Source: Pirellula sp.
GTDB lineage: Bacteria; Planctomycetota; Planctomycetia; Pirellulales; Pirellulaceae
Assembly (NCBI GenBank): GCA_021299695.1
Contig: JAJTEK010000018.1
Location: forward strand, 1-64,000
DNA length: 64,000 nt
Direction of reading: 5' to 3'
Shown piece after piece: positions 33,487 to 41,640 of the stretch (position 1 is the first letter of the stretch; each line of letters opens with the position of its first letter). The notes under the pieces are model-generated. The model had not been told where the DNA came from. It made no database searches and was given only the letters and a program-made list of their open reading frames with translations. The translations under genes were made by a program, and so were the position numbers.

Positions 33487-33498
33487 CCCTCATCGCTC

Positions 33499-33765
33499 GC
33501 GGACAGTCCCCGGTTTCTTGCTAGCAACCCGTGAGCCAACCAGCGCAAGCGAGCTGGGCGATTTAACCAATCCCGCCAGGAAGCTGCGTCTGGGCTTTGA
33601 TCAGACCAGCAACGCCTCGTCGGCCCGTAAATGGGGCTCCGACCCGTTTGTGGATAAACGCGATAGAAACGTCACGTACACGCACGGCCTCGGAGGGCCA
33701 TGCTACGGTTGGAAAAAAATACGTGGCCCTAATCGCGCGGGGACTGTTCCCGGTTGCTTGCCAAG
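33499..33765. repeat. R2-R1-R2 repeat block
   Basis: R2 at about 33499, a full R1 from about 33526 to 33719 (gtgagccaaccagcgcaagc to ccatgctacggttggaaaaa) and R2 at 33737. The ORF calls 33296..33814 and 33563..33775 come from reading this repeat and are not genes. Confidence 0.85.
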
Positions 33766-35703: not shown

Positions 35704-36144
35704 ATGGATCTGGCTCGATCAGAGGCAGGAGCCGCCGAGCGTTTTCCAACGCTTGCAAGAGAAGTCGAACAGATGGATTCCCAAGAAGCGTTGTTTTCGG
35801 ATCGGCTTCGTCAGATCATGAAAGACAAAAACATCACTCAACAACAACTGGCTGAGCGTATCGAATGCTCCCAGCCTGCGATTTCTCAAATGCTCAATCG
35901 AAAGTGTCGCCCTCAAAGAAAAACGCTAGACAAGATCGCGTCAGCACTCAGTGTCGACGTGCTTGAACTTTGGCCTGACTTGGAGATTATTCATTACATG
36001 GATGAGATTGCAGCAGCAGAATCAGACGGCTATGTCATGAGCGAATCCGAGGCACGCGGACTTCGCGGCAATAGCCAGCCACGTTCGAGTATCCGAGGCA
36101 AGCCTCTGAGATCACGAAAGGATCTCAAGACCAACGATGGATGA
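35704..36144 (+). CDS. XRE-family HTH regulator, likely antitoxin partner of GNAT gene
   Basis: 146 aa from the ATG at 35704; an ATG at 35773 is a second possible start. The HTH_3 domain is complete (LRQIMKDKNITQQQLAERIECSQPAISQMLNRKCRPQRKTLDKIASALSVDVLELWPDL), followed by a charged tail. The stop overlaps the GNAT start by 8 bp, as in toxin-antitoxin pairs. Upstream, a short frame starting ATG 35568 (MSTTSTTDTLRENSNTAILR) ends at 35663 and would join this frame (LLDQFHLLPDDEGRYG) after a single-base change, so the original N-terminus may have been longer. Confidence 0.78.
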   Translation: MDLARSEAGAAERFPTLAREVEQMDSQEALFSDRLRQIMKDKNITQQQLAERIECSQPAISQMLNRKCRPQRKTLDKIASALSVDVLELWPDLEIIHYMDEIAAAESDGYVMSESEARGLRGNSQPRSSIRGKPLRSRKDLKTNDG

Positions 36145-37460: not shown

Positions 37461-37945
37461 AACCCGTAGCCAACGGCGTAGGACTTAACCAAGTCCCCCA
37501 GGACGCTGCGTTTGGGCTTTGATCTGACCAGCAACGCCTCATCGGCCCGTAAAATGGGGCTTCGACCCGTTTGTGGATAAGCGCGATCGATTCGTCATCT
37601 ACACGCACGGCCTCGGAGGGCCATGCTACGGTTGGTGCCTCGTCGGCCCGTAAAATGGGGCTCCGACCTGTTTGTGGATGAACGCTACGCTATCGCGCGG
37701 GGACTGTCCCCGGTTGCTTGCCTTTTGCCCCAACGGGGCGCAAGGTGATAGCCCAGGGCAACGCCCTGTGGGTTCGAACGTCGAAATAGAGTCCCGCCCT
37801 GAAGGGGCGGAACTCAACGGCGCGGAAATCCATGCGTCGACTAACCCAGGGGGGCGCTTCGCTTTGCCCTGGGCTATCTCATTTTGCCCCTTTGGGGCGG
37901 GGAAGCAAAAAAAACCCCACCGCGCGGGGACTGTCCCCGGTTGCC
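37461..37945. repeat. R1-R1(partial)-R2-R3-R2 repeat block
   Basis: A divergent R1 (37461-37636) is followed by a second partial R1 (37637-37690), an R2, a complete R3 (about 37720-37915) and an R2 (37921). The whole block is tandemly arranged with no space for a gene; the 249-aa ORF on the minus strand is an artefact of it. Confidence 0.85.
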
Positions 37946-38154
37946 CGTCGTCCCGCTCCGGCCGCAACCCGCATCGGGATTCCGGAGGGATCCAATCCAT
38001 TAGCCAGAGGTAGTCGAATCGCCACCCCCGGTGGATGACGTAGAGAGCCGCAAAATGGGCTTTCACGACAGGGCAGAACCGCTCAACACGTTCGATTTCG
38101 CGATCGAATCGGCCGTCAGCGACGGAAACAAAGCAAGCATTCCGCCAGCCTACG

Positions 38155-38525
38155 GGGGGGGACTGTCCCCGGTTTCTTGTCAAAAACGCGGGGACTGTCC
38201 CCGGGTACTCAGTTAAACCCGTGAGCCAACCAGCGCCAGCGGTTGGGCGATTTAACCAAGCCCGCCAGGAAACTGCGTTTGGGCTTTGATCTGACCAGCA
38301 ACGCCTCGTCGGCCCGTACAATGGGGCTCCGACCCGTTTGTGGGTAAGCGCGATCGATTCGTCACGTACACGCACAGCCTCGGACGGCCATGCTACGGTT
38401 GGAAAAAAGCCGCCGACGTACCTAGGGCGGCGCTTCGCTTTGCCCTGGGCTATCTCATTTTGCCCCTTTGGGGCGGAGAAATGAAAAAAACCTCATCGCG
38501 CGGGGACTTTCCCCGGTTTCTTGTC
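38155..38525. repeat. R2-R2-R1-R3(partial)-R2 repeat block
   Basis: Two R2 palindromes (38155-38206), a full R1 (38215-38408), the 3' part of R3 (38411-38490) and a final R2. It lies immediately upstream of the region that precedes the Abi_2 gene. Confidence 0.85.
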
Positions 38526-38685
38526 AACCCACTAAGATTTCCTATTCCCTTGATTGCTAGCTATAGATTCTGCTGCAATCTCTGTAACTTGCCACGATTC
38601 AGGGTATTTCGTTCGGTTCATGGCCCCGCCCCTTGATTTTGCATGGATCGCGACCGATACTCTTTCCAACACACTCGCCGCACCC

Positions 38686-38741
38686 CTCGCCGAAAGAGCC
38701 CTAAGCTCTTTGGATGACGTGCATCAAGGGCGAGTTATTTT
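38686..38741 (+). ncRNA. Candidate structured RNA upstream of Abi_2 gene
   Basis: A nested stem-loop: outer arms CTCGCC (38686) and GGCGAG (38729), inner perfect 7-bp hairpin AAAGAGC-cctaa-GCTCTTT (38693-38711). It is followed directly by TTATTTTTTT, which makes it look like a terminated small RNA or an attenuator. It ends about 45 bp before the abi start codon. A structured RNA motif upstream of abiF genes is known from comparative RNA surveys; whether this is a member was not tested. Confidence 0.4.
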
Positions 38742-38786
38742 TTTGCACTCTTCCTATTTGCGATTGGTGAATGAGGAGAAACTTCT

Positions 38787-39686
38787 ATGCGCCAGCCATA
38801 CTGTAAAGGTTGGCTGTCCTATTCCGACCAAGTCCAGCTCCTACAGCATCGCGGGCTGGTTGTGTCGGACCTTCGCAAAGCAGAGCAGTTTTTATCTCAC
38901 CTCAACTACTATCGATTTAGCGGGTATTGCTTAGCGTTCGAATCGCAACGTCATACTTTTGTAGCGGGGACGACATTCGAGCAGATCGTCGACGCTTATC
39001 AATTTGATCTTGGATTGCGAGACTTAGTTACCGAAGCTTTGGAAATCATCGAAGTTGATTTGCGAGCTGCGATAGCTTACTTTTTCGGTCAGCGGTATGG
39101 CGCATTCGGTCATACTGTTGCGTCAAATTTCCATATAGGATTTGGGCACACGGACTGGTTGCTTCGACTCCAGGAAGAGGCGCATCGATCGAGCGAACTT
39201 TTCGTTACCCACTTTCAGCGGGCATACATCGAATTCCCGGACCTCCCTGTTTGGATGGTGACGGAGGTGATGTCGTTTGGCGGCTTATCGAAGATGTTTA
39301 TGGGAATGAGTCGCCCCGATCAAAAAGTGATTTCAAATCGCTACAGTTTACAGCCGATCATCCTTCAAAGTTGGATGCACCATTTTGTCTACGTACGAAA
39401 TCTCTGTGCACACCATTCACGGCTTTGGGATCGCGTTTGGGCAATCAAGCCGACACTGCCATACGGCAAAGATTGGGCTGTACCAAACTTGCGCAGCAAC
39501 CGACATCTGCTTGCAACATTGATGCTTCTCAGGTATTGGCTAAAGCGAATTCCGGCTGCCAATCGTTTTGCGTCGAACTGGAAGATTCGGGTGGAGGAAC
39601 ATTTGCAATCGCCACCGGCTGTCGCATCCCCCGACACTCGAATGGGACTAACGCAATCTTGGATGTCGAATCCGATTTGGAAGTAA
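38787..39686 (+). CDS. Abi_2 family abortive-infection protein (AbiD/AbiF-like)
   Basis: 299 aa. Family features: a typical N-terminus (KGWLSYSDQVQLLQHRGLVV), HLNYYRFSGYCLAFE, a central DLGLRDLVTEALEIIEVDLRAAI, FGGLSKMF, and the HEPN-like catalytic signature VRNLCAHHSRLWDRVW (Arg-x4-His). HEPN ribonucleases cleave RNA; AbiD/AbiF proteins stop phage growth by disabling the host. The ATG at 38787 has a good SD (gaggagaaac). A structured RNA candidate lies directly upstream. It stands alone between two R1-R3 blocks. Apparently intact. Confidence 0.88.
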   Translation: MRQPYCKGWLSYSDQVQLLQHRGLVVSDLRKAEQFLSHLNYYRFSGYCLAFESQRHTFVAGTTFEQIVDAYQFDLGLRDLVTEALEIIEVDLRAAIAYFFGQRYGAFGHTVASNFHIGFGHTDWLLRLQEEAHRSSELFVTHFQRAYIEFPDLPVWMVTEVMSFGGLSKMFMGMSRPDQKVISNRYSLQPIILQSWMHHFVYVRNLCAHHSRLWDRVWAIKPTLPYGKDWAVPNLRSNRHLLATLMLLRYWLKRIPAANRFASNWKIRVEEHLQSPPAVASPDTRMGLTQSWMSNPIWK

Positions 39687-39751: not shown

Positions 39752-40266
39752 CGCGCGAGGTCTGTCCCCGGTTTCGTGCCAGCAACCGGTGAGCCAACCA
39801 GCGCCAGCGGTTGGGCGATTTAACCAAGCCCGCCAGGAAGCTGCGTCTGGGCTTTGATCAGACCAGCAACGCCTCGTCGGCCCGTAAATGGGGCTTCGAC
39901 CTGTTTGTGGATAAACGCGATTGATTCGTCATCTACACGCACGGCCTCGGAGGGCCATGCTACGGTTGGAAAAAACCCCGTGACAGTCCATCGTCGTATT
40001 GATGACCTTATCGCGCGGGGACTGTCCCTGGTTTCTTGCCTTTTGCCCCAACGGGGCGCAAGGTGATAGCCCAGGGCAACGCCCTGTGGGTTCGAACGTC
40101 GAAATAGACTCCCGCCCTGAAGGGGCGGAACTCAACGGCGCGGAAATCCATGCGTCGACTAACCCAGGGGGGCGCTTCGCTTTGCCCTGGGCTATCTCAT
40201 TTTGCCCCTTTGGGGCGGGGAAACAAAAAAACCCCACCGCGCGGGTACTGTCCCCCGTTTCTTGCC
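39752..40266. repeat. R2-R1-R2-R3-R2 repeat block
   Basis: The most complete copy of the composite: degenerate R2 (39752), R1 (39783-39976), R2 (40012), R3 (40038-40237) and R2 (40240). It shows the usual order, with R2 palindromes punctuating R1 and R3. It fills the gap between the Abi_2 gene and the antitoxin-like gene. Confidence 0.88.
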
Positions 40267-40341
40267 AACAGGGGGGAGGTAGTGGATGTGATCGTTACGA
40301 GGGATCATGCCTATCTACCCTGCTTACCTAGGGCAAATCAA

Positions 40342-40411: not shown

Positions 40412-40654
40412 GTGGTTATCAAAGGCACAGTTCACAACGGAATGATTCGCTTTGAAAACTCTGAACTGCCAGAGGGAACTCAAGTCCTAATCACACCCGT
40501 GCAAATTCCGATCGCGAAGGCTGTGAAAGAGGACAGTTTGGAACAGCTCAAGCGGGAGGTTCACCGCATTGCCTCTTTGGCTTCCGAGAGTGACACTGAT
40601 GATAGTTTTTCAGGTGCCGATCACGACAAGCTCCTCTATGGGGGGGGAGTATGA
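40412..40654 (+). CDS. Small antitoxin-like protein upstream of PIN-domain gene
   Basis: 80 aa. The N-terminus (VIKGTVHNGMIRFENSELPEGTQVLI) matches short beta proteins of the AF2212/DUF104-like antitoxin type that precede VapC toxins. The C-terminal half is a charged helix. The stop overlaps the PIN-domain start by 4 bp (ATGA). Its partner toxin is broken, so the antitoxin may be an orphan. Confidence 0.7.
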   Translation: MVIKGTVHNGMIRFENSELPEGTQVLITPVQIPIAKAVKEDSLEQLKREVHRIASLASESDTDDSFSGADHDKLLYGGGV

Positions 40655-40949
40655 TCTTTGTTGACACCGGAGTATGGTACTCGCTTCTTGTACCTAAAGA
40701 TCCGAGCCACCAAAAGACAGCGAAGTGGTTTGACGCGGTCGCGCAACCGATAGTTACAAGCGACTATGTCGTTGACGAGACCTTGACTCTTCTGTTGATG
40801 CGAGGCGAGCGTTCCAAAAACTCTCATCAGCCGGATTGAGTTTTACCGACTGCACTTCGCATGTGGTCGCAGACGACTTAGGGATAAGAACGATTGCGTC
40901 ATTTGATCACCACTTTCAGACCACCGCACGTTTCCAATTGGTTCCCTAG
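40651..40949 (+). pseudogene. vapC-like PIN toxin, internally deleted and frameshifted
   Basis: The first 55 codons encode a PIN-domain start (MIFVDTGVWYSLLVPKDPSH, VVDETLTLLLMRG). A different frame then encodes the proper PIN end (GLSFTDCTSHVVADDLGIRT, IASFDHHFQTTARF, stop at 40949). About 40-50 middle residues expected in a VapC of 130-140 aa are missing, and the frame changes near 40815-40835. The first acidic residue (D5) and later Asp residues remain, but the fold cannot be complete. A decayed toxin gene is the best reading. Confidence 0.8.
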
Positions 40950-41102
40950 GCGCGATAACCCTTCATTTTTGCCTTCCAACGGCAAACACGCGACGCGATT
41001 TACTTTGGGACCGTACCGGGATCGGTGCCGATCTCGGGGCCTCTGGCTTGGCAGCAGGAGCCTTGGGTGGACGCCTTCGGATGTCGGCATCGCTAGCCAA
41101 AA

Positions 41103-41640
41103 ACGCGGGGACTGTCCCCGGGTACTCAGTTTGGATTGTATCCAGGCGACGAAGTTAAACCCGTGAGCCAACCAGCGCTAGCGGTTGGGCGATTTAACCA
41201 AGCCCGCCAGGACGCTGCGTTTGGGCTTTGATCAAACGAGCGACGCCTCGCCCGCCCGTAAAATGGGGCTCCGACCCGTTTGTGGATAAACGTGATCGAT
41301 TCGTCACGTACACGCACGGCCTCGGAAGGCCATGCTACGGTTGGAAAAAAACCCGTGACAGTCCGTCGTATTGATGACCTTATCGCGCGGGGACTGCCCC
41401 TGTTTTCTTGCCTTTTGCCCCAACGGGGCGCAAGGTGAAAGCCCAGGGCAACGCCCTGTGCGTTCGAACGTCGAAATAGAGTCCCGCCCTGAAGGGGCGG
41501 AACTCAACGGCGCGGAAATCCATTCTCCGACGTACCCAGGGCGGCGCTTTGCTTTGCCCTGGGCTATCTCATTATGCCCCTTTGGAGCGGTGAAATGAAT
41601 AAACCCCTATCGCGCGGGGACAGTCCCCGATTTCTTGCCA
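41103..41640. repeat. R2-R1-R2-R3-R2 repeat block
   Basis: R2 (41103), R1 (41157-41352), R2 (41383), R3 (41409-41600) and R2 (41609). The order matches the 39752-40266 copy, so the two are probably copies of one composite unit. Confidence 0.88.

Follow-up and report, generated by a model that had tools for sequence, protein, structure and literature searches.

Few examples of RNA antitoxins acting on AbiF have been tested so far. One of them is AbiF(Cd)-RCd22 of Clostridioides difficile, in which the RCd22 RNA arises by premature termination, binds AbiF and neutralises it both in cis and in trans, and in which mutations of the R and H residues of the HEPN motif abolish the toxicity of AbiF (PMC12373285). 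In a second system, an AbiF dimer has been seen bound to its non-coding RNA in the PbAbiF-ncRNA complex (PDB 8vz6). The RNAs upstream of abiF genes are represented in Rfam by the abiF RNA (RF03085), whose consensus has a CCCGCC/GGCGGG outer stem, a short inner stem, a CUCU sequence, a six-base loop on the 3' side and a closing GGCGGGU. We describe here a planctomycete locus built on the same plan, and a set of related RNAs that occur in phages in the company of no toxin gene.

The AbiF gene and its divergent upstream RNA

Our analysis showed that a stretch of 64,000 nucleotides from Pirellula sp. (the window) contains an intact AbiF/Abi_2 HEPN gene (ATG at 38787, stop codon at 39684-39686, 299 amino acids), which is the one Abi_2 gene of this 5.5-Mb genome (Table 1). 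That the gene is intact had already been claimed in a first-pass annotation and is borne out by the open reading frame, by a match to the full Pfam Abi_2 profile (PF07751; E 5e-53, 180.6 bits against a cut-off of 25.6) and by the presence of the HEPN motif R-N-x-x-x-H (R204-N-L-C-A-H209); the PADLOC AbiD profile also recognises the protein (E 6e-67). The R, N, C, A and H of the motif are invariant in an alignment of six AbiF sequences, and the motif also aligns with that of 8vz6. The latter was the single chain returned when the PDB was searched with the window protein by phmmer (E 9e-40, full length), and the sole significant structural match in the PDB when an AlphaFold model built from the six sequences (pLDDT 78) was compared by Foldseek (E 6.9e-12, TM 0.76). 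At the protein level, window AbiF and PbAbiF, although only about 30% identical, are alike in full-length sequence, fold and HEPN motif. In one abiF relative, 95% identical (L003 4968-5864), codon 34 is replaced by an in-frame stop while the RNA is intact; it was therefore omitted from the protein alignment.

Table 1. Coordinates of the features discussed in the text (window positions unless a locus is named).
Feature	Position	Strand	Evidence or remark
RNA promoter of the sigma70 type (predicted), with TTGATT 38633-38638, 17-nt spacer, GATACT 38656-38661	38633..38661	+	predicted start near 38668
abiF-like structured RNA, ~75 nt, predicted antitoxin	38668..38744	+	fold z, compensatory changes in relatives, R1 genome match
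Outer stem, 5' arm ACUCGCC (partner GGCGAGU 38729-38735)	38673..38679	+	100% of cells paired in 12 distinct relatives; two pairs changed on both sides
Inner stem, 5' arm GCAC (partner GUGC 38719-38722)	38680..38683	+	two pairs changed on both sides
Apical hairpin, variable in sequence and length, closed by invariant UC/GA pairs	38687..38717	+	alignment A1, consensus fold
3' internal loop AUCAAG, counterpart of the six-base CAAAUC loop of RF03085	38723..38728	+	alignment A1, RF03085 consensus
T-run; outer stem doubles as predicted intrinsic terminator upstream of abiF	38738..38744	+	T enrichment in relatives
Ribosome-binding site AGGAG, 8 nt 5' of the abiF ATG	38774-38778	+	read from sequence
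AbiF (Abi_2/AbiD) HEPN protein, predicted RNase toxin	38787..39686	+	Pfam, PADLOC and PDB 8vz6 matches
Catalytic motif RNLCAH of AbiF	39396-39413	+	
Dispersed repeat copies	38140-38530, 39754-39978, 40153-40269, 41098-41353, 33498-33718, 37482-37635		
Head-to-tail planctomycete-type and canonical-type abiF RNAs, no Abi_2 gene	L067 164-275; L092 2064-2175; L086 4476-4591; L117 10957-11072; L080 9748-9861		

The first-pass annotation had also placed a nested hairpin followed by a T-run about 45 bp before the gene. Both elements were confirmed, with the T-run lying 42 nt before the ATG, and the RNA turned out to be slightly larger than proposed, beginning near 38668. It is made up of a single-stranded 5' AACACA, nested stems, a variable apical hairpin and its own terminator, and the region 38665-38750 folds with an energy of -27.4 kcal/mol, compared to -17.2 +/- 2.6 in shuffled sequences (z -3.9; 0/200 as low). 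We gathered abiF relatives from genomes and aligned 13 upstream RNAs without any structure constraint (alignment A1). Relatives of at least about 50% identity carry the RNA upstream, and all of them are planctomycete except for one on a contig titled Verrucomicrobia. The consensus fold has seven pairs in the outer stem, four in the inner stem and an apical hairpin that varies and is closed by two invariant UC/GA pairs, and over 12 distinct sequences 97.9% of the cells of the 16-pair structure are paired. Covariation in homologous upstream regions, on which the first-pass proposal had been made to depend, is present: 21 cells are changed on both sides in the 12 distinct toxin-linked RNAs, against 6.1 in shuffles (0/500 as high), and the GCAC/GUGC inner stem of the window is replaced by GUGC/GCAC in two relatives (L007 and L030). 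As a control, sliding the partners by 1-3 columns brought pairing down to 30-43%. Outside the stems, the toxin-linked RNAs keep the motifs 5' AACA, CNCUC, UGA and CAUC.

A match to the abiF covariance model had been suggested as a check, and here the result was negative: no RF03085 match was obtained with the whole window at the gathering threshold, with the RNA region at E <= 10, or at the site of the window RNA in a search of the genome. A covariance model trained solely on the planctomycete-group RNAs (R1) gave one real match in the 5.5-Mb genome, the window RNA itself, at E 1.5e-21 (runner-up E 2.2), the E-values of this model and of R2 below being rough owing to a short calibration. R1 also found the upstream site in ten distant abiF loci (L013, L034, L017, L020, L016, L039, L015, L033, L014 and L009; E 7e-10 to 0.0011), three of which (L020, L015 and L014; R1 E 5.6e-6 to 4.5e-4) are RF03085-like as well, with RF03085 scores below the cut-off. 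Conversely, a second model made from five canonical abiF RNA sequences (R2) weakly finds three members of the planctomycete group (L025, L026 and L007; E 5e-5 to 0.003); the window RNA itself was not matched in the R2 search. Six further R1 matches of 25-30 bits (L055, L056, L057 and L127-L129) have no abiF gene nearby and were judged to be chance or plain terminators.

The window RNA follows the plan of RF03085 in its nested outer and inner stems, the CUCU-like loop after the inner stem, the six-base 3' loop, the closing GGCGRGU and its site just 5' of an Abi_2 gene. The window group differs from RF03085 by its four-pair inner stem GCAC/GUGC with no unpaired base before it and by its long variable apical hairpin, and the AACACA leader and the AUCA loop are typical of the group. 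Since the RNA is missed by RF03085 but shares its plan and is linked to it by the cross-matches of R1 and R2, we call it a divergent abiF RNA rather than a formal member of RF03085; judged by the bridge between the R1 and RF03085 models, it is a divergent relative within the abiF RNA superfamily. These RNAs make up a planctomycete-group subfamily with a structure fixed by covariation, and since the public model misses it, the Rfam library underestimates how widely abiF RNAs are distributed.

A proposed AbiF-RNA toxin-antitoxin pair

In 13/13 toxin-linked relatives, a -35/-10-like pair (typically TTGATT-17-GATACT) ends 5-6 nt 5' of AACACA. The toxin-linked loci (n=13) match the promoter consensus at a mean of 8.2 positions out of 12, versus 5.1 in the toxin-less phage copies described below, and the 12 nt 3' of the stem contain a mean of 8.6 T residues, versus 4.2 in the phage copies. 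The simplest reading of these conserved promoter- and terminator-like sequences is that a short RNA is made from its own promoter and terminates at the stem that closes it, while transcription now and then continues into abiF, as has been described for RCd22 (PMC12373285). The layout has in common with type III systems an RNA gene directly 5' of the toxin gene and a predicted terminator between the two. Most type III systems carry tandem antitoxin repeats, whereas the RNA is present here as a single copy, with no second one elsewhere in the genome; this, like the lack of an RF03085 match, counts against reading the locus as such a pair. The locus resembles AbiF(Cd)-RCd22 in having an RNA 5' of abiF, a terminator before the gene and an RNQCAH-type HEPN motif; RCd22, however, consists of two motifs and a separate terminator, whereas the window RNA has one motif, the stem of which is apparently also the terminator (PMC12373285).

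Taken together, these features make it very probable that the locus encodes an AbiF toxin and a divergent abiF RNA antitoxin, forming a type III-like pair with its own promoter and with the closing stem as terminator, the mechanism of which we infer from homologues. Transcription from the predicted promoter would yield the ~75-nt RNA and would mostly stop at the closing stem and T-run, which we propose would place the RNA in excess, while occasional read-through would provide the abiF message. The RNA, in its nested abiF architecture, would bind the AbiF homodimer and hold the HEPN RNase quiet. A drop in or loss of the RNA, for example during phage infection, would then allow AbiF to cut RNA and halt the cell. 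The toxicity of AbiF, its binding and neutralisation by the RNA and a role of the window pair in phage defence would all be expected by extension from these homologues.

It could be argued that the hairpin is a mere transcription terminator or attenuator that lowers abiF expression in cis and never binds the protein; the first-pass annotation had itself named a role as terminator alone as the outcome that would speak against its proposal. It has the form of a terminator, with a stable stem and a T-run 42 nt before the ATG, and the C. difficile RNA acts partly through premature termination (PMC12373285). A plain terminator, however, needs neither the invariant motifs outside the stems of the toxin-linked copies nor an inner stem that has a loop of six bases on one side only, an arrangement kept across many genera and common to abiF RNAs of other phyla; moreover, the phage copies retain the fold and these same parts, mostly without a T-run. 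We therefore consider this explanation improbable. Less probable still is a Cas13-like role, in which AbiF would use the RNA as guide or activator to recognise invader RNA. Such a role would be in keeping with the proposal that AbiF is the ancestor of Cas13 (PMC12373285, PMC12948488) and with the high variability of the apical hairpin, but we dropped it because the segment that varies is folded on itself as a hairpin and is not a free guide.

Toxin-less RNAs in phages

Phage RNAs that resemble host defence RNAs have precedents: the pseudo-ToxI RNA of phage PhiTE is a decoy for ToxIN (PMC3475682), phages carry RNA anti-CRISPRs known as Racr (PMC10651486), and an RNA anti-Cas13 has been mentioned (PMC12948488). 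In one planctomycete genome (G365), R1 found two extra copies of the RNA beyond the AbiF-linked copy, both on contigs of prophages that encode terminase, portal or capsid proteins and have no abiF gene. These copies (L060, contig C148, 144-202, and L061, contig C9, 147-211, both on the minus strand) belong to related prophages and lie in the gap before a gene starting MTNDAFRWYNVG; their core motifs are identical and their apical hairpins differ.

Viral contigs (IMG/VR) were scanned with a pattern of the inner part of the RNA, the outer stem and AACACA leader lying outside the pattern. The 65 loci obtained split clearly into 42 that score 42-66 bits with R1 and 23 below 20 bits, which we rejected as chance. 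As inner-motif patterns alone were scanned, the number of phage copies is to be taken as a minimum. No Abi_2 gene was detected at E <= 0.01 in the 42 full viral records carrying the RNA, some of which are fragments. Across 32 distinct sequences of the phage copies, the outer stem reaches 98.2% pairing, and both partners differ in 28 cells (0/500 shuffles as high); these sequences include related phages, and the cells are thus not independent events. Sequence comparison divides the 42 contigs and the two prophages into 8-9 unrelated groups, and the neighbours of the RNA differ from group to group (terminase, ParB-like protein and DNA methyltransferase, helicase, capsid). In L067/L092, L086/L117 and L080, R2 detects a canonical abiF-type RNA directly beside the R1-type RNA (E 7e-14 to 1.6e-6; Table 1). 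Another conserved GC-rich hairpin (e.g. GGCCCTGCGGTCATACGCGGGGCCGATT) is found just 3' of the RNA in L084, L083, L109 and their relatives.

Other searches of phage sequences were negative. RF03085 had no match in the 42 viral records, a result that carries no weight because it gave none in control genomes either; direct cmscan of 13 of the 42 viral loci returned no abiF match; a distant blastn search of INPHARED phages with a phage RNA gave chance matches of 18-29 bases alone; and viral contigs contained no relative of the window AbiF protein and no match to the patterns TGACGTGCATCANNGGCGAGTT and GACGTGCATCACGAACGGGTT or to a canonical abiF pattern.

On balance, we lean towards the view that toxin-less abiF antitoxin RNAs, in some cases two subtypes head to tail, serve phages of eight or more unrelated lineages as an RNA-based counter-defence that would bind and silence host AbiF. 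In this view, the RNAs have kept the fold but not the host promoter or, for the most part, the T-run, and would rely on phage transcription. The retention of the fold without a toxin and the pairing of two subtypes fit the hypothesis of decoy antitoxins. As with pseudo-ToxI (PMC3475682) and Racr (PMC10651486), a non-coding RNA like a host defence RNA is borne by phages without its protein partner, here in 42 viral records, some of which may be fragments. The differences are that the putative target would be AbiF and that natural copies of the RNA are spread over many lineages of phages, some of which have both subtypes in tandem.

It is also conceivable, though we find it the less persuasive explanation, that the phage copies are RNA elements serving the phage itself, or that they are left over from abiF genes since lost. 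The viral records could be incomplete, and a few bacterial loci have retained the RNA where the abiF gene is lost or truncated (L030, L029, L132 and L133), so that the presence of the RNA alone is no proof of function. We dropped the relic explanation because the structure of the phage copies is preserved by compensatory change, unlike that of a bacterial relic copy (L054), in which stem pairing is lost. Regulation of one phage gene was likewise dropped: the copies span 8-9 unrelated lineages with terminase, DNA methyltransferase and helicase, or capsid neighbours, and no shared phage gene could explain them. We found no paper on toxin-less abiF RNAs in phages in the literature searched, the coverage of which was partial. 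If the decoy hypothesis is confirmed, RNA mimicry of AbiF antitoxins would be a common phage strategy, parallel to RNA anti-CRISPRs.

Surroundings of the locus

The abiF cassette of the window is flanked by dispersed repeats (copies 84-92% identical) that recur through the window and are possibly relevant to mobility. One repeat copy is overlapped by an Acido-Lenti-1 RNA (RF01687; 37334-37388), which scores just above the gathering threshold. Parts of what look like other toxin-antitoxin pairs lie on either side of abiF, namely a Cro/C1-type HTH protein (35704-36144) and a short PIN-domain fragment (40412-40839) preceded by a small ORF. Two plasmids (L031 and L033) have the Abi family gene, preceded by an upstream RNA of its own, next to or within type I restriction genes.
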